This document shows positions 6,531 through 43,592 of a DNA stretch of 64,000 nt, piece by piece. The position numbers and the translations under genes were made by a program. Each line of letters opens with the position of its first letter. Positions within the stretch are counted from its first letter, which is position 1. The stretch is taken from NCBI GenBank assembly GCA_005656395.1, contig SRSI01000004.1:434001-498000 (forward strand). The letters are read 5' to 3'. The DNA comes from Strongyloides papillosus (taxonomy: Eukaryota; Nematoda; Chromadorea; Rhabditida; Strongyloididae). The notes below the pieces were generated by a model. That model was not told the origin of the DNA. It saw only the letters and a program-made list of their open reading frames with translations, and did not search any database.

Positions 6531-9500
6531 ATGCGTTGGCGTACATTGTCATCGAACTCAGTGATTCTTGTAATATCTATAATAACATATATTATCACTC
6601 AAATAAAAGGATTATCTTACCGTTGTGAAAATGATCAAATTCTTATTGTTCAATCTTTTGGCAACGACACTATACGTATGCATTGTCAAAAACTTCAATT
6701 ATGTGGATATTCTAACTTGGTAAATATTTATCTTCTCACTTTCATTTATTCTTTTTTTTCTTCTTAATATTATTCTTTATACTTTTAGAAATGTACCTAC
6801 GATAAAGAACAACCAGCTTGTGGAGGTAAAACAAATTTTGTTGCTCATGTTAATCAATTAACACCTACTGGAAAGTATGTAATATGTTAAACAATAAAAA
6901 AAATTTAATTATTAAATCATCAAATTAATTTTAGAGTTGTACATACATGCTGTGATATGACCTTCAAAGATAATGAAAATAAACCCATGATAGAACATGA
7001 TGGAAACGATTGTTTTGTTTATGAGTTACCCGATGGTACTACAGATACAACTCCTGGTTCTGACGCTTCTGATATTATAAAAAAGAATATTGAAGTTGTT
7101 AGAAATGGATTTACGGTACTTAAAGATGCTAGTCAAATACCAGAAGATTTTGGTGGATACACTGGATATAGATTAAGATTATTTATGCTTCGTAATAAAT
7201 CTCCACCACTTCTTATTGTTAAAGCAATTGAAAGGACTAGGTATGTTTTATCTATTGATAAAATATATATAAACTTTAATAATTATTTTAAGTGGAGGTT
7301 ATCGAGTAACAATTTGTCGTCCAAGATGTGGAAAATTTAATAGAGAAGGACTTATATCACATGGTGATTCAATATCAACATTTGATAAAGATATTTTAGT
7401 TCCAAAAAATAAATTAACAAAATCTAATGAAGAAAAAATTAAATTGTATAAGGAAAGTGAGGAAAATCAAACTACAATAAATAGTAGTAAAGGAGACTTA
7501 TCTTTAGAAGAAAATGAAAATAAAAGTTCATCGAAATCTAGCTCTGAAACTCATACATCATCATCTAAGGTATCTTCTGAATTAGAAAAAGAATATGTTG
7601 GTAATAATGGTTTTTATTCAAAAGAGTCTTCATCAAGTGGACCAAAATCAGGTCATGTTGAATCATTTGGTAAAAATGGTGAATGGACAGCAGCAAGTTG
7701 GACATCATGGTCATCAAACACATGGACAACTTGGAGTACTCAAACATGGAATTCATGGAATGAGCATGAAAAAAATAAAGATAAAACCGTTAACACTAGA
7801 ATTAGAGGCCAAACAAGAGGAGATAGAGTTGTATCATCCGATTTAAATAAAAAAATTATTGATGAAGTGACAAAGGATCTTAAATATAAAGGTACCGGTA
7901 AGTTAAAAATACCTTTCGGTGATTTATTCTTTTTACATTACATTAGACATCAATGATTATGATAACCTAAATTCTCATGAGACACATGAAATGGAAAGTC
8001 GAGAGAAAGGATTTATTGACAATAGAAAAGTTGTTATTATAAATCACAATAGTACTACATTCAACAATTATATTCATCATGGAGAGAAAGATACCTCAGA
8101 AGGCAGAAAAAATTATCCTTTACAAATTAATAATAATAATAGTTTTGGAAATGTTAGTTCATCAAGTAACAACTCCGCAAAAAATAAAATGCCAAATGGT
8201 GTTTCCCAAGTAAACCACAATGGTGGATCTAAAAAATCAGATGAAGATGGGGAAAAAAATACTAATGATGGTGACAGTGCTGACAATAATGGTGATTCAT
8301 TCCATCCTCTTTATGGAAAGAAAGACAAAATTCCTTTTGAAAAAAATAACAAAAATGCGGAGGACGATAGTGATGAGAATGATAAATCAAAGAACGACAA
8401 AAATGATTTTGATAACAATGATGGAGATTTAGCAGACAAAATTAGGGTAGGTTGATTATTTTCATATTTAATTATAATGACTTATTTATTCCATTCCAGT
8501 CATTCACAAAGAAACCCTATAAAAATAGGTCAGGTAAAAAAGTGAGTTGTTTTAATTACCATTATATAATATATAACTAAAAATATTCTATCTTTTTTAG
8601 GATGATCAAAATAATAGTAAAGAGTTAAGTGCAGAAAAAAATAATGAGGATGATGGTGATGATATAAGTGGCAAAGGAAAAAAAAGTGGTAGTAATAAGA
8701 AGGGAAATAAAAATGATAAAAAGAATAAAGATAATATTAATGAGGAGAAAAATGATAAAAGTGATGAAAAGTTGACCGATGATGGTGACGACAACAATAA
8801 ACCTATTGATCAAAATAATAGAAAAGATGATAAAAATAACGCTTCTAAGAAAATGAAAAATGATAAGAACAAAAATAATAAGGACAACAAAAATACTACT
8901 AGTCCAAGACATCCAGAAAATGAGGGTGATGAGGCAGGTGTTGATGGTGATAATGATAGTGGTAAAAAGAAATCTACTAAAAATCCAGAAAGTGAAAATT
9001 TGGAAATAACAGAAATAGTTAATGAAAATAGTAATGAGAAAACTGGAATTGAAGATAAAAATTCTGGGGATAATAAGTTGCCTGGAAGGAATGACAAAAA
9101 CAAATTGAATAATAAGCCAAATAAGAATACATTAACTGACAAGTTAAAAACAGATAATGACGAAGGAGATAATAAGGAAAATAGTCTAAAGAGTAATAAA
9201 GAAAATTTAAGTAAAGAAAAGGGTGGTATAAATAATAATAAAAAACCTCTAACAAGTTCCAATGATAAGACAAAAAATAATAATGGCGATCAAACATTAA
9301 ATTCTTCTAACATTACACCTGGTGGAATTATTACAAATACTCCAAATAACAAAAATGATAATGGAATTGAATCTAGCATACCAGAAGGTGATGGAGATAA
9401 TGATAATAAAAATAAGACTGATATTAATGAAGAAAGTAAAGAGATTGGAGAAGAATCTGAAGAGGATGATGGAGATAACCTTCCAAGCACAACAACTGTT

Positions 9501-10751
9501 ATTGATACTGATAATGGTAATGAAAATATAAACAATGAAAAAGACATTTTTGGGGATAAAAATGACAAAGATAAGAATAATAAACAACCAACAGATGCTT
9601 TAAGTGGTTCTGGTAGTTTGATCAATAAAGAAGATAATTTTGGTACACATATCACAACTATTAATGAAAAAACCAATAGTAGTAGAGAAGAGATTGGCGA
9701 GTCAACCGCTATACCATCAGATTTAACTGAAAACGGAAATACACCATTTAATTTAGGAGGTTCAGGTGAAGAAGGGAATAAATTAAGAGGTAGTCCAAAT
9801 GATAATACAAGTGTATCCGGTGAAAATGGTTCTTCAGAAAATCCAGATACCAGTAGTGGTGGAAGAAATAATGAAGGTAATAACAGTGAAGGTAATAATA
9901 ATGGTAGTGGAGATAACAGTAATGGTGGTACAAGCGGTGAAGAAGATGGTACAGAAAATAATGGATCACTTAAATCAAGATCTAAACCATTAAGACAAAG
10001 CCCTAAAGTAGCTGGTTCTCCTACACATAGAGCATCTGGTGGATCATCAGCTAAGGCAGCCGACGGTAATTCTGAACCACCAAGTGCATTTAATGCTGTG
10101 GCTAGACGTAATTGTTTTGCTGGAGATACTATAATTGAAACACCAGGAGGTTCTAAACGTATGGATGAACTTCAAGTTGGTGACTTAGTTTTAGTACCAT
10201 CACCAGAGGGTATTCAGAAGTTTGAGAAAGTTGAGATGTTCTATCATAGAAAACCAGACTATGAACAAAAATTCTTACTTATTCAAACAGAATCAGGAAA
10301 GAAGCTTTCTTTAACAGAACTTCATTTAATACCATTTGGAAAGTGTAGTGATGCAAATAATGCTATACGAAATAATGATAATTTGCAACAATGGATGCTT
10401 GGTTCTAGGTATGCTTATAAAGTTAAAGAAGGTGAATGTGTAATATCATATGATGATAATAATCATTTAATTGCTGATAAAATTATTAAAGTTGGAAGAA
10501 AAATTTCTAAAGGAATATACTCTCCAATAACAACTGAAGGAGGTATTGTAACAGATGGAATATTTACATCGTGTTTTTCACAAATAGAAAGTCAAGCAAC
10601 ACAAAAATTGGCTTATGATATAATTACAATGTTCTACAGAGCATTTGGGTACCTTTCAGATAATACGCAACAAATAATTCAAGAAATTCCATCATCAGTA
10701 GATATGCTCCACCAACTTAGTTGGTATATTATTCCATTTGCAAAATATTAA
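6531..10751 (+). CDS. qua-1: Nematode hedgehog-related protein with C-terminal Hog/Hint domain (quahog-like)
   Basis: Seven exons: 6531-6719, 6789-6874, 6935-7240, 7293-7897, 7947-8446, 8500-8541 and 8601-10751. All junctions are GT..AG and keep frame, giving 1,292 residues. A signal peptide (about 1-28) precedes a Cys-rich N-terminal domain (about 29-215; motifs RMHCQKLQLCGY, VVHTCCDM, GGYRVTICRPRCG). Residues 325-349 carry W-x-x-W repeats. Some 700 residues of Asn/Asp/Lys/Ser/Gly-rich linker follow. The Hint domain begins at Cys1081 (RRNCFAGDTIIETPGG) and contains the block-B motif LTELHLIP. In this family the Hint domain cleaves autocatalytically before that Cys and releases a secreted N-terminal part, likely acting in cuticle or apical matrix. 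The single unusual N-domain and long linker favour quahog over warthog or groundhog; this subclass call is from memory and less certain than the Hog domain. Confidence 0.85.
7684..7758 (+). repeat. Tandem 8-residue W-x-x-W repeat inside the hedgehog-related protein
   Basis: Residues 325-349 contain Trp at 325, 330, 333, 338, 341, 346 and 349. The three W-x-x-W pairs start exactly 8 residues apart (WTSWSSNT, WTTWSTQT, WNSWN). W-x-x-W is the known acceptor motif for Trp C-mannosylation by DPY-19-type enzymes on secreted proteins. Modification of this protein is inference. Confidence 0.8.
8601..10060 (+). repeat. Low-complexity Asn/Asp/Lys/Gly/Ser-coding linker
   Basis: The purine-rich AAT/GAT/AAA/GGT codon mix encodes an unstructured hydrophilic linker between the N-terminal domain and the Hint domain. 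No Cys or aromatic-rich segment interrupts it. The frame is open throughout, so it is a translated spacer and not a pseudogene tract. Confidence 0.85.
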
Positions 10752-14857: not shown

Positions 14858-16255
14858 TTAAACATCACTTTCAGAAACAACACCAGGAAAAAAGTATAGT
14901 TTTTTCTTTAACCTGGAACAAAAATCAGGCATTTGTACATTTTTTGAACTGGTACTAACAAATTTTTCTGCTACCATCTTATTAACCATTGTTAACATTG
15001 AAAGAATGTCATGCGTTGCGGAATACTCATGAAAGATTTTATAAATTGATTGAATAAACCAACTACCATTTACTGAATTCCTCCAGGAAACATAACCTGA
15101 TGGAGTTGCATATGCTACCAAAATATCAGCCTCAATTGGAATTTTAATTTCAGGATGATAACTAAGTCTCCTCCCCCCAAACTTTGGAACATTTTCCTTA
15201 TAACAATTATTTCGTTTTTTAAATAAACTGCCCCAATTACTATCTATTTCATCCTGTGGCAATGTATTGGTTGATAAAACACCTTCATCATACTTAGCTA
15301 TAAAAATATTTACATAAAAAATAATATTATTAAAACATACAACCACGACATGCTTGAATAAAAAATAATTTTGGTTTATTAAGTAATCCAGGACAATTTT
15401 TAGCATTAAGTAATGATACAAAATCTTGTACTAATATTTGATTGTCATCTACCCCATATAAACAATCAGTTTCTCCGTGGGTTAACACACAAACAACAGC
15501 ACTGTCAAGAGAAAAGTGTTCCGGAAGTCTGGAAAATTTTTTCATTTTTTCAAGCATTTCCTAAAATATTATTTATTACTATAAAATATACATGTTTTAT
15601 AAAACATTACCAAAGCTGTTAAATCACGAGATGTTGGTAAGCATTTATATCCTAGTTTAGTAAATAGAGATATTAAATATTCTTCATCCTTTTCTGTTCC
15701 ATAACGTTCATTCATTGTTTGAAAATGTTGGTTATTTATTATTAATACTAAACCTTTTGGATTTGAAAATATTTTATAGATGTGTGCTTTATTTTTATTG
15801 TAATAATCAAGATTTGATGCATAATGAGATGGTGTTTGTACCATGTATTCATCAAGTGATGGATTATCATCCTCCTCGAAACCTTCCATCTCACTCAAAT
15901 CATTGCGCAACTTTTTTTCTTTAAAAACATCAACTGTTTTACAGTCAATATAATTTTCCATACATTTTGCCAAACTATATTGATGTGTTTCAATGAGGCT
16001 TTCATAAAAGACATCAAATGCTTTATTACCTCTTGTTTTAAGAATTCTAATTAGTTGATTACATTGTTCTGTCCTACCATATTCTTTAAATAACACCTCA
16101 ATATCGTTGTTATTAATTATCTTGTTTTCTTTTAATATTGGGACAACTGATTCAACATTAAGTGTATTGACAAATTCCATTAAATTTGTTGTTAAAACAT
16201 TCCTCCTTTGAATTGTCATAGATGATGACGTATATCCTGATGATCTCAAAATCAT
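14858..16255 (-). CDS. ced-3: CED-3-type caspase with N-terminal CARD
   Basis: Exons 15611-16255, 15341-15560 and 14858-15297; introns 50 and 43 bp. The second donor was placed at GTATGT (15335-15340) because that preserves QACRG; the product is 434 residues. Residues about 14-105 are a CARD (RRNVLTTNLMEFV .. ILKTRGNKAFDVFYESL). The caspase core carries catalytic His243 (VLTHGE) and Cys286 (QACRG). The small subunit contains ADILVAYATPSGYVSWRNS and GSWFIQSI, which is close to the CED-3 S1/S3 region (YVSWRNS). It is the executioner cysteine protease of programmed cell death, activated on a CED-4-like apoptosome through the CARD. Asp-containing linkers between the subunits are present. The protein is shorter than the roughly 500-residue C. 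elegans one because the CARD-protease linker is short. Confidence 0.93.
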
Positions 16256-18715
16256 TTCTTAATATGTATATGATTTAATATAGAATAATATATAGGTCCT
16301 ATAAATAGATAATGCTAAAATAAATCTACTAATAATATTTTACTAAGAACAATAAATTTCGTTTTTATTATATAAGTCGTTTTATAAACAAGTACTAATA
16401 AAATTTTCCATTAACTTTTGTTATGGAAAAATAATTAATATAATAGTAAGATCATGCCTCAATTTATTGTATAAGATAGAAGATAGTTACAATAAAGTAA
16501 ATGACTATTTGTTTAATGAACCTTTATTATTCTTTTATAGACAAAAATTAATTTCATACATAAAAAGAACAATAAATATAATTTATATACATCATTGTAT
16601 GTCTTTTATTTATATGCAAATTGCATATGCTATATAAACAGTAGAAAAAGGATAATAAAGGAATAAAATATATCTGTTAAAGAAAATTTGGTTATCCTTG
16701 TAGTAAGTATATTTTTACTTTTTACCTAAAAAGCAAGTATATATGAATGTTAAAAAAGATACAGTGACATACATATTTAACTTACCCTTATGCAGGAGTG
16801 TTCTTGTTTAACTAGTAGGATCCTTCTTTTTTAATGGACCATAGCCAAATATATATCTACAGACTACACATTCAGATAATTGTTCAAGCTATGCATATTA
16901 AATTAAGTTGAACTTTTTTGATCTCTGTCCATGACATATTGTCTTATAATACATATCCAATAATAACTAAATAGGATATTTATATGTTTTATTTATAGAA
17001 GATCATTTGTCAACCTTTCTTAAAAAGCAGATAATTTAATTTAACAAGAAAAAAATGGATAAATTTTTTCTTACTCTTTAAATAATATTATTTTAAAAAT
17101 TGTAAATAATTTTGTTAGTTATATCATCAAGTACGTCAAACCATTAGTAAATGATTTTTAAAATCTATAGTAAAATTAACTATATTTCCATAAAACATAA
17201 AGAAATATAAAACAATTACAATTTTAATATGTAATACTTGGAAATTCTAGACATATTTAAAAATAACATTCTATTTAAAACATACTTTTTAATATGTTTA
17301 CATCGAAAAATCATGTTTTGTATTTTTAGGTTGCTTTAAACAAATTTTATTTACATATAACTTGTAAAATTAAAAATAGAGCGAAAATGTTATGATATTT
17401 CATTTTGTTTAATTTATTAACATTTTTATCAATGTAAGAAATGACTTGTATTTATTAAAAGTATTTTTTTTAATTAAAAGCCTTAACTTCACTTAGTAAA
17501 TTGTAAGATACACTAAAAAAGTTTAATTAAATTTTTTTTATTTTGGATAAATATGTATTTAGTATTTTTTTTGCATTAAATTAATTTCAAAATTACTAAG
17601 GCAGTTAAGTCATTTTACTTTTTATTAAATTAAATTATTTTTTAGGAGTTATTATTTTTCTTACTAATTACATCAAAAAGTTTTGTATTGATAGTGTAAC
17701 ATATTAAATTTTTATTTATACTTATTAAACAATCAACTTTTTGATATTAATGATAGATTGATTTTTAGAGTAGCGGTAAAACCTTTTTTAACCTCATCAT
17801 TTTATATAAATATTTCTCTTTTGATATCTTATATTAATTTTCACCAAGACTATTCTTTCATTACTACAAAAATACACAGACATTTACAAGTTTTTACAAT
17901 TTCAACTTTTATTATTAGTAAGATTTATTATTATTATTAAATAATAGTATCGTAAGACCTATTTTTTTGACAAATTGTAAAGATCGAAACACTGTAAGAC
18001 ATAACTAGGAAGAAGCATTACTCATCAAAAGTATACATATATAAATAGAGTTAAAATATTACATATATTCATTCATTCTTGTAATATTTTTACTTTCATA
18101 TCAAATAAATTGTTGCATAACTTTATATATTATTCTTCACTTTGAGGTGTCTCTCTTGTGACCTCTATAATCTATGTTGATTACAATTTTAATTTAAAAA
18201 TACATTTTTAATTATAAATTAATTCATTGTATCTGGTTAATATTTAATCGTTTGTTAATAAGTCAATTTCTCAACCATACAGGTGATATATTTTTTATAA
18301 TTTCGCACTCTTAATCTCAGATAAGAAAATATTTTATGATAACAAATATATTGTACTAAACATGCATCTGATAATATTTTATATTTATCAATTACCTCTC
18401 TTTGTATCATTGTAAAACATAGAAATTATCAAACTGAAGTGACACTTTTAACTTATATAAAAAGATTAAGCAAGAAAATGTGCCTTAAGACATTTGCTAA
18501 AGTATGTTAAATATTTAACGTCATTTTACACTTTTCTAACTTTTATATTCACTAAACTATTAATTTTTTTATTCCCATTGACATTCTATAATTAATCATT
18601 TTTGCTTTATCATTCTTTGTGAAATTATTATTATTTTTATAATGACAAACCACGTTTTAAATTCATTTTAAATAATAGCATTTTTAGATATTAACAATTT
18701 CATGAATAAAAAGTG
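16256..18715. other. Intergenic region between divergent genes
   Basis: About 2.5 kb upstream of both ced-3 (-) and the cytidylyltransferase (+). Near 16612-16642 an interrupted palindrome (ATATGCAA-A-TTGCATAT) precedes a TATA-like GCTATATAAACAG. A 5-codon upstream ORF (ATG AAT AAA AAG TGA) sits at 18702, just before the start used at 18716. Nothing else recognised; the frame at 17758-17940 is random. Confidence 0.5.
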
Positions 18716-20038
18716 ATGAATATTGAAGTAGATAAAAAAAGATCAAATATGAATCATGATGATGAAATAAAATCAAGCAATGAAATTGTCAATGGAACTA
18801 CCATCAAAAATGGACGTGTATGGTGTGATGGATGGTAAAAAAATTCTTTAAATATAATAAACTACTTTTTTTATAATTACAGTTATGATATGATTCATTT
18901 TGGTCATGCTAATCAACTTAGACAAGCTAAGAAAATGGGAAAATATCTTGTAGTTGGAGTACATACTGATAAAGAAATTTTAAAAAATAAAGGTCCTCCA
19001 GTTTTTAATGAGAATGAAAGGTATAAAATGGTAAAGGGAATCAAATGGGTCGATGAGGTTGTTGAAGGTGCACCATACTCTACAACAATAGAAACATTAG
19101 ACAAATATAATTGTGAATTTTGTGTCCATGGGAGTATGAAATTTTTTACTGTATTTTTAAATTTAATAACATTTTTATTACTTATAGATGACATAACGTT
19201 AACTGCGGAAGGTGTTGATACATATGCTGAAGTTAAAAATGCTGGAAGATATAAGGAATGTGAAAGAACCGTTGGTGTTTCAACAACTGATCTCGTTGAA
19301 AGAATGCTCCAACTAACAAAAACTCACCATTCCACAGCAGATTCATTTGATGATATTCAGGGGCAACGTGCCAGAACATTAAGTACTGGAAGTTGTGGAA
19401 TATCACCGTGGACACGTGTTTCAAAATTTATACCATCAACTCAAACATTACTACAATTTGCAGAAGGTATGACACCAAAGCCAACTGATAAGGTTGTATA
19501 CGTCTGTGGTGCATTTGATCTTTTTCATATTGGTCATTTATCATTTCTAGAGAAAGCTCGTAAATTAGGTGATTACTTAATTGTTGGATTATTTGAAGAT
19601 AGTGTTGTTAATGCATATAAAGGAACAAATCATCCTATCATGTCATTACATGAAAGAACATTAAGTGTATTAGCATATAAACCAGTCTCTGAAGTTATTA
19701 TTGGTGCACCATATATAATAACAAAAGATTTAATAAAAAATTTTAACATATCAATTGTCGTTGATGGAAGTAGAGTAGCGCATCATAATACACTTGATAA
19801 TGTTGATATCTATAAAGTTCCAAAAGAATTGGGTATTTATCAATTAATAGATTCTGGAAATGACATGACAACAGAAATGATTATCAAACGTGTCATTGAA
19901 AATGAGAAAGCCTTTAAGGCAAGAAATAATGCTAAAGAGAAGAAGGAAGTTGCAGCTTTTAATGCTTTACAAAAAATGAAACAAAAAAATGAAAATGATT
20001 CATTAACCAATAATGTTGTTAATTTAAATATTTGTTAG
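18716..20038 (+). CDS. pcyt-2: Ethanolamine-phosphate cytidylyltransferase (CDP-ethanolamine pathway)
   Basis: Exons 18716-18834, 18883-19133 and 19188-20038 give 406 residues. Two nucleotidyltransferase folds are present: [20 protein letters not shown] with HFGH at 45-48, and AFDLFHIGHLSFL with HIGH at 237-240. Typical PCYT2 blocks are CVHGNDITLTAEG, RYKECERTVGVSTTDL and the C-terminal YIITKDLI. The enzyme makes CDP-ethanolamine from CTP and phosphoethanolamine for phosphatidylethanolamine synthesis in the cytosol. The second intron (54 bp) is a multiple of three and has no stop, so an open frame runs through it. It was removed because splicing restores CVHGNDITLT. The C-terminal tail is Lys/Asn-rich. 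Confidence 0.95.
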
Positions 20039-31313: not shown

Positions 31314-33560
31314 TTAAACAACTGCTCCTTTATGAGTTAAAAATTCAAGTAAAGTTTCAATTTCCACATTAATGTTGGCAGTAGCTCGACGAATTCTTTG
31401 AGCAATCTCATTTGTCTCACCATCATCAAATGAACGTCCACAAAAACTAGCAACCATCGCTTGAGCATGAGCATCCTCTGATGCTACAGAAACATTACTA
31501 CCAGATTTATCTTTTTTATTATCTGTATGTCTATGGAGTAATTTATCTCTTAATTCAAGCATATCAATAAAGCTTCTCCTTTTACTGGGTGTAGAACGTA
31601 TTTTATGTGGTGTTGCTGTAAGATCAAGTTGTTTAAGGGCATTATTTAATTCACCACATTTCACGCGAATCTCTGAATAATGAAGAATAGTATTTTTTAC
31701 AATTTCATGAATCTCTGCAACCCAAAATTTCATTGAAAGTCCCAATGCTCGACGACATTCATTAATGAAAGATTGTGACTGTGCTACAGCCTTATCGAGT
31801 TTATGATTATTCCATAATTGTAAATATTCACCTTTGTGATCTCCATGGGGTGCCCAATCCATAATTGCTGACCAATCTTTCATTAAAAGTGGTTCAACTT
31901 TTATTCCAGCCTGAAGCATACATAAAATACCTTGTTTAGTGTAAAGATCACCTCTATTTAAATGAGGATATAAAAATTTAACAGTCATTTTAACATCAAC
32001 CTTACATAATTCTTTACGAACTTTTGATAATAAAAGACCTAGAAGTTTAGCACATGCTTTATTACTTCTACACTCATCAACAACTTCACATTTAGGATCA
32101 CAATCTTGATGAAAACACGGTGATTTTGAAACAAATATAACTATTTCATATAACTCAATTTTATACTTTGAGATTAAGTCATATATTGCAGCAACTAATT
32201 GTTCCTCAACATGTGGTTCACCTTTACTTTCATGGTAAAAATCACCTCTATAAATGTAATCTTCACCAATTAATGTCACAATTAATCCACTACTTTCATG
32301 TTTATGTTCAAGGAAACAATTTTGTACATGTTTAGGGACATGAAATTTTGATGGTCCATTAGTACAATCACCACAACATTTACATGCTGATGTACAAAAT
32401 TCATACATAGCTCTACATGGACATTCTTTTTTAACACATTGTTTTTTACTTTTTGCGCATTGACATCCACCTGAAGGTTTTTTTATTTTTGTTAGTTTTT
32501 TTATTGGTTCCTTATTTTTACAAATTTGTTTACAAGCACATAATTTGCTACAACTCTCTTTTATTCTTAAGCAATCACAACGTTCATTTTTTGAACAAGC
32601 ATTTTTTGCAGGTTTTGCTGGATCAACTTCACAAGAGCACTTACATATTGCTTGATTAAGGCAATCACCACGATATCTAAAATAGTATATTTATTTAGGA
32701 TATCTTTTAAAATACATTTAAAAAAATTTTGCAAATATGTCAATTATTCTATGAATCTATTAAATTGTTGCTATTATTGAGGATAAATAAAGAATTAAAA
32801 ACAATAGATTATTTAAAACACTATACCCATACTAAATATTTATTAAGTATTTTGATATTAACTGATTAAGAGCCTTCTGTTAAAATTGCTTTCTTTTTAT
32901 CATTTATTTGCATATTAATAAAATTCATATCTCTCTACTAATACATCATTAAAATTATAATAGTACTTTGTTAGGCTAATAATTACCATGGCCTTCTAAC
33001 ATAACAGATGTTTGGCTTGTTAAGTAACAAAGATAACCCCATGATTAAATGAACGACAACTTAATATAATATAATTATAAAAAGATGCACTTTTCGTACT
33101 TTTATGATATATAGCTTAAATAAATTAAAAAATAGGAGATGAATAAGAATTTATAGTAAAATATATAAATATCAATCATGCTATAAAATTATATTATTTT
33201 TATCAATGTAAAATAAAATTTAATAAAAGATTAAACTAAACAAAAAATTATATATATTATAAAATTAATTTGAAATCAACATAAAGACAATTTAACTTAC
33301 CTCGCACTTTCGCAATGCTCATCACACATTCTCCGTGCTGCAAAACATGGACAAGAATCAGCACTACATCTAGATTGTGTATTTGGACAATCACAACAAA
33401 AACTTGGTGGTGTAGCATTTTGCATTCTTGAGGAGTGGTAACCACCACCAGCGTTATAGTTAGATGAATTCATATTACTAGTAAATCCAATTGTAGAGGA
33501 GGTTGAACAATTATCATTAAAACCTCCAGGTGATACAACACTAGATTGAGAAGTTTGCAT
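31314..33560 (-). CDS. CXC-type zinc-binding / AID-APOBEC-like cytidine deaminase fusion
   Basis: Exons 33301-33560 and 31314-32676, with a 624-bp intron (GTAAGT..TTTTAG), give 540 residues. The ATG lies 5 bases after an acceptor (GTTGTTAG), suggesting trans-splicing. Residues 1-52 are Ser/Asn/Gly-rich. Residues 53-193 hold three Cys clusters of CXC type (CCDCPNTQ..CPCFAARRMC; CDCLRIKESCSKLCAC; CQCAKSKKQCVKKECPC then CKCCGDC), as in DNA-binding tesmin/TSO1/LIN-54 proteins. Residues 217-345 carry a zinc-deaminase core: His242 and Glu244 (PHVEE), 28 residues, then Pro273-Cys274 and Cys279 (SKSPCFHQDC). A strand VKMTVKFLYPHL and GILCMLQAGIKVEPLLMKDW follow, matching the downstream landmarks of AID/APOBEC. 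The C-terminal 190 residues are helical and unassigned. Predicted role: DNA- or chromatin-directed cytidine deamination. The reading is direct; function is inference. Confidence 0.85.
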
Positions 33561-41305: not shown

Positions 41306-42349
41306 ATGACACGATTTAAAGTCTTTTTGCTTATATTTTTCTTCTTTGTTATATTTGCCGTTACTTCAATCAATTGCAACGATGGTAATACTAGAAGAAG
41401 ACATGTTGATGGACACCACCACAAGGTAAAAGTGCCTATTATTTAATTTTTTAGTAATTTTTTATCATTGTAGGGTAAACATTCGAAAAATGAAACGGAA
41501 ATAAAGAAAATGACAAAGGAGGAGAAAAATAAGGAAATTAAAATACTGATTGGATTAAGAAAAGATGCTGAGATACTTAAAAAGAATTTGAATAAACAAA
41601 CATTTAAAATTTTATTTACCAAATCTAAAAAACAGGGAAAAGTTAGGGAGGAGAAAAAAGAAAATAATAAATTGCAATTTTTGTCTCTTTGGAGGCAAAA
41701 AATGAGGAATCGTATGAAAAGTTTAATGAGGAAAATCAATAGATTGGAGAAAAAAATCAAAAAAATGAATTTAAAGGAAAAAAATAGGAAGGAAAAAGAA
41801 AGGAAATCAAATACGGAAACAAACATTATTTCTGATGATATTATTAAAGAAAGAGTTAAAGTAGCTGGAATTTCTAATGAATCAAATCATAATATCAAAA
41901 AAAACCATAGAAAGGATAAAAAGATGCATAAACATGTAACTGTTAATAAAAATATTAATGATGCCAAAATTATTGAAAATGATGTGAAAGAGGAACGTTT
42001 AAAATCATTTCATTTATCACAAAATATTTCTTTAAATGGTTTAGTTGGTTCATCCTGCCAAAGCCACAATGAATGTAAACCAGGACTATGTTGTCACCGA
42101 GTAAAACATCCAAGGCCTTCTGATCCAATTGCTGTTTGTGTGTTACATGATTTAATTGATGGTTCACCATGTAAACATTCCTGTGCATGTCATTCAGGAC
42201 TACAATGTTTCTCTCCATCTAAAAATCCCAAAATTATAAATGACCAAGCAACGTGCAAAAAAGCTTCAACTACTGATTTTATGAATGGTGTTTATGAAAA
42301 TAGCAAGGAAACAGTTTTCGATATAGATCAGTTTAAATTTTCTTTTTAA
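41306..42349 (+). CDS. Secreted protein with Dickkopf/colipase-like 10-cysteine domain
   Basis: Exons 41306-41425 and 41474-42349 (48-bp intron) give 331 residues. A signal peptide ends near residue 24 (FAVTSINC). A Lys/Glu/Asn-rich, probably coiled or disordered region (about 45-225) follows. Ten Cys lie at residues 235, 241, 246, 247, 262, 273, 277, 279, 285 and 301, spaced C-x5-C-x4-CC-x14-C-x10-C-x3-C-x-C-x5-C-x15-C. The order with an adjacent CC and a later CxC (GSSCQSHNECKPGLCC, SCACHSGLQC) is that of the second Cys domain of Dickkopf and of colipase/prokineticin folds. Dickkopf proteins antagonise Wnt co-receptors; whether this one does is unknown. Fold call moderate, gene model strong. 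Confidence 0.75.
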
Positions 42350-42887
42350 AATGTCCTTTTGTTCTTCTTGTTTATCATAAAATAAAAATGTCAACTTCTT
42401 CATTTATAATTAAACAACTGTTTACGTCATTCCTTTAGAAAAGTATGACAACTTATGAGTTTACAAATTTCCTTATCTAGTACACTTTAAAATATTTTTT
42501 TACTACAAAGTAATGTTAAAAAAATAAATATTTTAATTCTGTTTTAAAAGTAATTTCCAATCACTGATATGATAACAAGATCAGAGTAATTTTGTACGAT
42601 AAAGGCATGTTGACGCAAGAATTAAGTATATTTTGAATTTGATGGATACAGTGAAAATGATAATTGATAATAAAACACTGAAAATTATGCATTGCTGACG
42701 TCTACTTAAGATATTAAATTTGATAAGAATATTGTTGATTGGAAGTCAATATTTATAAAAGTAATAATTTTTACGATTTCAAATGCATTATATGGACATT
42801 TGTCTCAGCATAATTCTAAATATACTTATTATACAAAAAAAGTAATAGTTCTTTTATAAATTTTTTCCTTTCTTTCTAGACAATAAA
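42350..42887 (+). other. Intergenic region
   Basis: About 0.54 kb between two same-strand secreted-protein genes. It holds a 3' UTR and a short promoter. No other feature seen. Confidence 0.5.
42871..42879 (+). promoter_or_regulatory. Probable trans-splice (or 5' UTR) acceptor
   Basis: TCTTTCTAG lies eight bases before the ATG at 42888, with a pyrimidine tract upstream. No earlier in-frame coding is present. This fits a spliced-leader acceptor. Confidence 0.65.
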
Positions 42888-43592
42888 ATGAATATTAAAT
42901 ACTTCCTTGTTATACTTTGTATCGTCCTTCTTATCACTTTTGACTTAGCTGAAGCTGGAAAGAAAGTTGGAAAGAAGTAAGTTTTATATTTGTTTTTTTT
43001 TCTTAACTAATTTATACAATAGAGGTAAAGAATCTAAAGCTGTTGAAGGAAAAGGAAAGAAATCTGAAAAAGTAAAGGAACCAAAAGTCAAAGCTGAAAA
43101 AACTAAAGTTGAAAAGGTTAAAGGAAAAAAAGTTAAGAAATCAAAAAAAACCGAAAAGGTTGTTGAAGAGAAAGTTGTTGAGGAACCAAAAGTTGAAGAG
43201 GTTGTAGAAGAAGTACATGCAGAGGCAGAAGTTGTTGACAAACATCAAGAAGAAGCCCTTGTTAGAGATGAAATCCCAACCAAAGTCTCAACACTTCAAG
43301 AAAAAATTGCTGCTGCTAAAGCCGCTAAACAAGCTAAAGCTTCCTCAGCTTATGAACAATGCAAACAAGAATGCAGAGCTAAAAGAGATCAACTCACAGC
43401 TCAAGAAGTAAGTATAGAAAATACTATAAAAAATAATATCTTTTTTAGTATGTTGATAAGCTTAAACAAGAACTTGCTGATGCACAAGAATATTTAGCTT
43501 CCCAACCTATCCCAGAAACACAAGCTGCACCAGTTACTCCAGAAACAACAACTGATGTTCCAGTTCTCAGTAAGACTAGAGGAGAACTTTAA
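42888..43592 (+). CDS. Secreted Lys/Val/Glu-rich repetitive protein
   Basis: Exons 42888-42976, 43023-43407 and 43449-43592; introns 46 and 41 bp; 205 residues. The signal peptide covers residues 1-23 (ILCIVLLITFDLAEA). The mature protein begins with a basic KVEK/KVKG-type repeat tract (about 30-75), then an acidic KVVEEPKVEEVVEEV tract. Next comes an Ala/Lys helix with two Cys (YEQCKQECRAKRDQL), a short coiled coil (YVDKLKQELADAQEYL) and a Pro/Thr tail ending GEL. Codon use is richer in GTT, GAA, AAG and GCT than in neighbouring genes, suggesting high expression. I do not know the family. A structural or excretory/secretory protein is plausible. Confidence 0.75.

Follow-up and report, generated by a model that had tools for sequence, protein, structure and literature searches.

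Does a roundworm possess a polynucleotide cytidine deaminase of the AID/APOBEC family that brings its own zinc-cluster anchor, and if so, what does it do? This question is raised by a minus-strand gene in a 64,000-nucleotide stretch of the Strongyloides papillosus genome (contig SRSI01000004.1, positions 434,001 to 498,000; referred to below as the window). An AID/APOBEC-fold domain fused to CXC zinc-cluster modules, with its His, Glu and two Cys residues intact, had been proposed from the DNA letters, and our structural model and alignments supported this architecture. We favour the view that the product is a zinc-anchored AID/APOBEC-fold protein that edits DNA or RNA catalytically in a housekeeping role, with belief and doubt evenly balanced. 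Papers are cited by their PubMed Central (PMC) identifiers.

Gene structure and the deaminase domain

The gene starts with an ATG at 33560 and ends with a stop codon at 31316-31314. These end positions are exactly those of the original prediction, whose observation was confirmed; a GT-AG intron lies between them. The spliced product of 540 amino acids differs in one residue from the S. papillosus protein A0A0N5BYA4 (P0001 in our set). In the genome assembly (58.2 Mb, 79 contigs) the gene was found at a single locus, which is also the sole APOBEC_N match there. The GC content of the window is 24.6%, and an Rfam search of the window gave no match. The parts of the gene are as follows.

33301-33560, minus strand: exon 1, encoding the variable N-terminal tail (20% identity) and the larger part of CXC module A, which is degenerate (81% identity; residue 53 begins at 33404)
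32677-33300, minus strand: GT-AG intron; the spliced frame equals the S. papillosus protein except for one residue
31314-32676, minus strand: exon 2 including the stop codon, encoding CXC modules B and C, the deaminase domain and the C-terminal region

Two homologue searches returned 50 and 64 proteins, and every match with a named organism was from a nematode; the searches were limited by length and shared words, and relatives outside nematodes are possible. Alignment A1 comprised 34 of the 50 proteins from the first search. The counts for 25 orthologues and six members of a second paralogue (paralogue 2) refer to 31 of these 34 rows, after P0021, P0022 and P0030, with gene models broken at the motif, had been dropped. 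The following features were found in the deaminase part of the protein.

31746-32348, minus strand: AID/APOBEC-fold deaminase domain (approximately residues 197-397)
32205-32213, minus strand: H242-V-E244, zinc ligand and catalytic Glu, in 25/25 intact orthologues; in the paralogue-2 rows of A1, His is present in 6/6 and Glu in 5/6
32100-32120, minus strand: P273-C274-FHQD-C279 with the zinc ligands C274 and C279, both in 25/25 orthologues and 6/6 paralogue-2 rows
32052-32099, minus strand: Cys-rich insert that follows the zinc motif, with all three of its Cys (C283, C289, C295) in 31/31 intact rows; model confidence is low at residues 281-290
31941-31955, minus strand: loop 7, R328-G-D-L-Y332, in 31/31 intact rows

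The product indeed contains H242-V-E244 followed, after 28 residues, by P273-C274-x4-C279, as had been read from the DNA, and the suggested check on the invariance of H242, E244, C274 and C279 across the 25 orthologues was positive. The protein thus carries the HxE-x(23-28)-PC-x(2-4)-C motif by which membership of the AID/APOBEC fold family is judged. When the protein was shuffled 20,000 times, HxE..PC-x(2-4)-C still turned up in 78 cases, so the motif alone is modest evidence and no proof by itself. These shuffles would fit a chance motif, or a cytidine deaminase of the nucleoside type instead of an AID/APOBEC, and so would the lack of an AID/APOBEC match in sequence searches of the PDB (see below). 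The predicted structure speaks against both, unless the model is wrong: it has an APOBEC-type deaminase fold with a helix between strands 4 and 5, also in a second look with VIA-align, and its order of strands and helices is the one guessed in the original prediction. On this predicted fold we rejected a nucleoside-type deaminase, and we consider the probability of this whole alternative close to negligible.

Family profiles pointed in the same direction. The APOBEC_N profile scored above the cut-off in 7/7 proteins and matched at an expectation value (E) ≤ 0.05 in 34/34. The NAD1 profile matched 20 of the 34 relatives, below the cut-off in the rows shown, and is the more independent sign of the family, because the Pfam APOBEC_N model is suspected to include nematode sequences. 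The APOBEC2 profile (PF18772) gave weak matches in 3/34 (best E 2.5e-4), with the window protein below the cut-off. We did not count Tyr130 of APOBEC3A (A3A) among the lost residues, since its aligned position, L326, is adjoined by Y323 and H325; Y323 is Tyr or Phe in 25/25 orthologues, and the H325 position is Tyr in 6/6 paralogue-2 rows. The three Cys of the insert are possibly a second metal site; a 2018 survey by Krishnan et al. in PNAS reportedly describes neomorphic inserts that bind metal in enzymes of this class.

The CXC zinc-cluster modules

We compared the N-terminal half with the superfamily pattern of CXC domains given in PMC3447885, with the long loops tightened for this analysis. 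For invariance we used alignment A2 (32 rows), which drew on 31 of the 65 homologues, chosen for a complete N-terminal half; its figures therefore exclude broken models such as P0016.

32514-32645, minus strand: CXC module B (residues 98-141), nine Cys plus C-x-N, consensus match; the nine Cys are invariant in 32 rows and the Asn is present in 27/32
32358-32465, minus strand: CXC module C (residues 158-193), nine Cys plus C-x-N, consensus match; the nine Cys and the Asn are invariant in 32/32 rows

Three CXC clusters had been predicted. Modules B and C are complete, and their 18 Cys are invariant across the 32 rows; the first cluster (residues 53-97) is degenerate and, by our reading of the Cys positions, short of one consensus Cys. 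Two CXC matches occurred in none of 2000 shuffles of residues 51-195, and at least one in nine. In the deeper orthologues and in paralogue 2, the consensus was mostly fitted by module C only. With the Pfam TCR profile (PF03638) we found no match to P0001 at E 0.1 and none at the locus in a genome scan; 6 of 34 relatives matched at E ≤ 0.05 (best 0.01).

Two further observations concern CXC repeats elsewhere. A separate LIN54-like gene with two canonical repeats is present in the same genome (C26:520080-520424). In the Nippostrongylus protein P0003, module B occurs twice in tandem, giving three consensus matches, which may reflect an exon duplication or an artefact of the gene model.

Conservation and duplication in nematodes

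The protein evolves slowly. As a control we used the gene for ethanolamine-phosphate cytidylyltransferase (PCYT2), which lies in the same window (18887-20035, plus strand), taking the best 120 of its 1059 matches. Across 13 paired species, identity over exon 2 was 76-91%, compared with 59-66% for PCYT2; the deaminase protein was the more conserved in 13/13 species, by a median of 22.6 points. The partial proteins P0021, P0027 and P0028 were retained in this comparison. Identities by domain were calculated for 13 of the 25 orthologues, two Dorylaimia rows and four of the six paralogue-2 rows. In the 13 orthologues they amounted to 91% for the deaminase domain, 91% for CXC-B, 81% for CXC-A and 96% for the TPxK region, and to 20% for the N-terminal tail (9 of the 13 rows were long enough). 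The C-terminal region contains two further conserved features.

31581-31613, minus strand: tandem T442-P-H-K and T449-P-S-K, running into KRRS
31317-31478, minus strand: conserved C-terminal helices (residues 487-540), modelled at 487-498 and 505-536; mean identity 91% over residues 489-540 in 13 orthologues

Two TPx[KR] sites were present in 27 of the 28 rows outside paralogue 2 and one site in the remaining row, with KRRS in 28/28; the pair was not found in the six paralogue-2 rows. We take these sites to be of the cyclin-dependent kinase (CDK) consensus type.

This slow evolution bears on a role in germline genome defence through mutation of transposons or viruses, which the original prediction had offered as an example. 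Several AID/APOBECs do act in this way, and the genome has a match to the uracil-DNA glycosylase (UDG) family (C13:58204-58674). AID/APOBEC defence enzymes evolve fast, however, and are usually told as mutators in arms races, whereas this protein exceeded PCYT2 in conservation in 13/13 species, is constrained even in its substrate-facing loop 7 and Cys insert, and was found at one genomic place only. On the conservation above the control enzyme we rejected an arms-race mutator as the leading idea, and we regard germline defence as very unlikely.

In a tree of 27 of the 65 homologues, the faster-evolving second paralogue, represented by Plectus, Trichinella, Trichuris, Soboliphyme and one more protein, split off at 100/99; the exact joins are unsure because of long-branch warnings. 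The duplication is old, because Trichuris, Trichinella and Soboliphyme have both paralogues. Judged by identity, none of the named rhabditid, spirurid or tylenchid matches belonged to paralogue 2, and the searches found only a paralogue-2 protein for Plectus.

Some database entries were unusual. Among the Trichinella entries P0051-P0053 and P0043, there are some with the deaminase behind an acyl-CoA dehydrogenase part and another labelled an adhesion G-protein-coupled receptor; these are likely annotation errors. Two PCYT2 matches that rank with the nematode proteins, P0070 and P0078, come from a Plutella xylostella record and a eukprot record, respectively; they cover 69% and 71% of the query at 62% and 57% identity, which may reflect contamination or odd gene models. 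Other genes in the window are a CED-3-like gene encoding a CARD and, after it, the first part of a caspase domain (15572-16258, minus strand), a gene with a Hint (hedgehog autoprocessing) module preceded by a region that begins lysine- and asparagine-rich (8601-10748, plus strand), and two open frames (41474-42346 and 42949-43494, within 41474-43494, plus strand), lysine- and glutamate-rich in the stretches shown and without a Pfam match.

Proposed role and relation to known systems

We picture a conserved, single-copy protein of the AID/APOBEC family that is probably nuclear. Its tandem CXC modules of the Zn3Cys9 type and a basic linker would attach it to nucleic acid, to chromatin or to a partner, and its AID/APOBEC domain would act on a single endogenous target, DNA or RNA, that does not change. 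This action would most likely be cytidine deamination with a remodelled substrate pocket, and the tandem TPxK sites suggest control by a proline-directed kinase such as CDK. The strong constraint on most of the folded parts, the single copy and the invariant substrate-facing loops point away from an arms race and towards an endogenous target that stays the same, and the retained Glu speaks for catalysis.

Several results weigh against such an editor. Asn57 of A3A is described as present in every APOBEC domain with catalytic activity, and not even Gln or Asp is tolerated in its place (PMC5414352). The equivalent position in the nematode proteins, placed by the motif and the ends of the predicted strands rather than by superposition (strand 2 ends at residue 235 in the model), is not conserved: within residues 227-241, Asn occurs only at 239 (8/25 orthologues) and 229 (1/25). 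Trp98 of A3A, the Trp of SWSPC, contacts DNA (PMC5414352). The corresponding residue is Lys in 24 of the 25 orthologues and Arg in one, turning SWSPC into S-K/R-SPC. This Trp is a mark of the catalytically active APOBEC class, and APOBEC2 has SSSPC in place of SWSPC. As judged from the alignments, the chemistry of the active site is conserved and its pocket is not; the lost Asn and Trp point to an altered substrate or none. HxE is kept in seven of nine paralogue-2 proteins; in P0042 (Plectus; HAS(E)) and P0057 (from a metagenome, with an unsure position in the tree; HAV(E)), the catalytic Glu is, by alignment, lost or shifted, so this lineage can do without HxE. The PDB sequence searches returned neither an AID/APOBEC nor a CXC protein; one gave five unrelated chains at E 0.96-1.3. 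In a motif scan covering 52 of the 65 homologues, 22 had the tight CXC consensus at least twice, another 22 had a single match and eight had none, several of these proteins being truncated. The CXC model (residues 88-199) was poor, with a mean predicted local distance difference test score (pLDDT) of 54 and a predicted template modelling score (pTM) of 0.25. The comparison of rates is based on one control gene. Finally, the CXC domain of LIN54 contacts the DNA minor groove through Tyr (PMC4974476). This Tyr was absent from module B (0/32) and module C (0/32); in the positive control, the LIN54-like gene of the same genome (L005), both repeats have it. A LIN54-type DNA reading of the modules was rejected on this ground.

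The replaced Asn and Trp fit an alternative in which the protein is an APOBEC2-like, non-catalytic binder of nucleic acid or chromatin, with the fold and its zinc as a scaffold and with transcription or chromatin regulated via the CXC modules. The weak APOBEC2 profile matches and the loss of HxE in two paralogue-2 members are in line with this, as are the reports that APOBEC2 and APOBEC4 are inactive yet bind DNA (PMC12993061) and that CXC domains apparently serve above all to bind DNA (PMC3447885). On the other side stand the retention of E244 in 25/25 orthologues and CXC modules without LIN54-type contacts. APOBEC2 keeps its Glu too, which tempers the first of these arguments. We regard a binder as a serious possibility that is, on balance, probably not the right one.

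Relatives of AID, APOBEC2 and APOBEC4 are recorded in nematodes (PMC12993061, citing a 2018 paper), and a putative nucleic-acid deaminase of C. elegans is attributed to a 2011 survey (PMC5956068). In UniProt, relatives from many nematode lineages already stand under CRC-domain or APOBEC_N names, and the Strongyloides gene is an example of an already recorded family. We take the nematode AID/APOBEC-like proteins of Iyer et al. 2011 (NAR) and Krishnan et al. 2018 to be very probably the same family, and ZK287.1 to be the presumed C. elegans member. ZK287.1 is named once in a section on differential expression in neurons, in a list of genes whose functions are diverse or uncharacterised (PMC12667811). 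In a limited search of literature available in part, we found no mention of the CXC-deaminase fusion or of a test of this protein, which does not prove its absence from print.

The editing of specific transcripts from C to U is a special case of the catalytic reading, so that our degrees of confidence in the two overlap. Genetic work in C. elegans implies C-to-U recoding of svh-1 mRNA and assigns it to CDD-2, an enzyme that groups with the nucleoside deaminases (PMC11305532). To us, an editor of polynucleotides looks like the more natural agent, and the neuronal listing of the presumed orthologue is compatible with this. The link to svh-1 is speculation, however, and the genetic evidence there is for CDD-2 (PMC11305532); we think an RNA-directed editor unlikely. 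In its fullest form, the catalytic reading would be a phylum-wide, kinase-gated C-to-U editor, tethered through its CXC modules to a single fixed target in nuclear DNA or RNA, with a non-canonical pocket and possibly a second metal site, which could underlie the suspected recoding in C. elegans; we put this forward tentatively, as a rather doubtful extension.

What makes this AID/APOBEC unusual is that strong conservation and an altered pocket come together with a CXC anchor and a pair of kinase sites. It brings its zinc-cluster anchor along and, across nematodes, has changed less than one enzyme of core metabolism. Its near-unchanged retention in roundworms suggests a fixed everyday job rather than defence against viruses or transposons. 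Two questions become testable: does the AID/APOBEC family provide nematodes with an editor that converts C to U in polynucleotides, and can such an enzyme be fixed into a constant role? The gene is very probably present in C. elegans, where genetics could quickly test a catalytic role. If the protein is inactive, it would be an independent parallel to APOBEC2, with the AID/APOBEC fold reused as a binding module.

Among known systems, CDD-1 and CDD-2 of C. elegans share the zinc-dependent cytidine deaminase motif, but CDD-2 clusters with nucleoside deaminases, and no CXC modules are mentioned for it in the available portion of PMC11305532. LIN54, tesmin and TSO1 likewise carry CXC modules in tandem, with nine Cys and a terminal Asn; the nematode protein differs from them in lacking the minor-groove Tyr (32/32 rows) and, for P0001, a TCR match at E 0.1. 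With APOBEC2 it shares a conserved zinc site, a changed pocket and the weak profile matches in 3/34, but matches to the APOBEC_N and NAD1 profiles are more frequent among the nematode proteins than matches to the APOBEC2 profile, and APOBEC2 is not known to have CXC modules. From APOBEC3A and AID, which deaminate ssDNA in vertebrates, it differs in the replaced equivalents of N57 and W98 and in the Cys-rich insert after the zinc motif; compared with these two enzymes, CXC modules in front of the deaminase domain and slow evolution are the features of the nematode protein.
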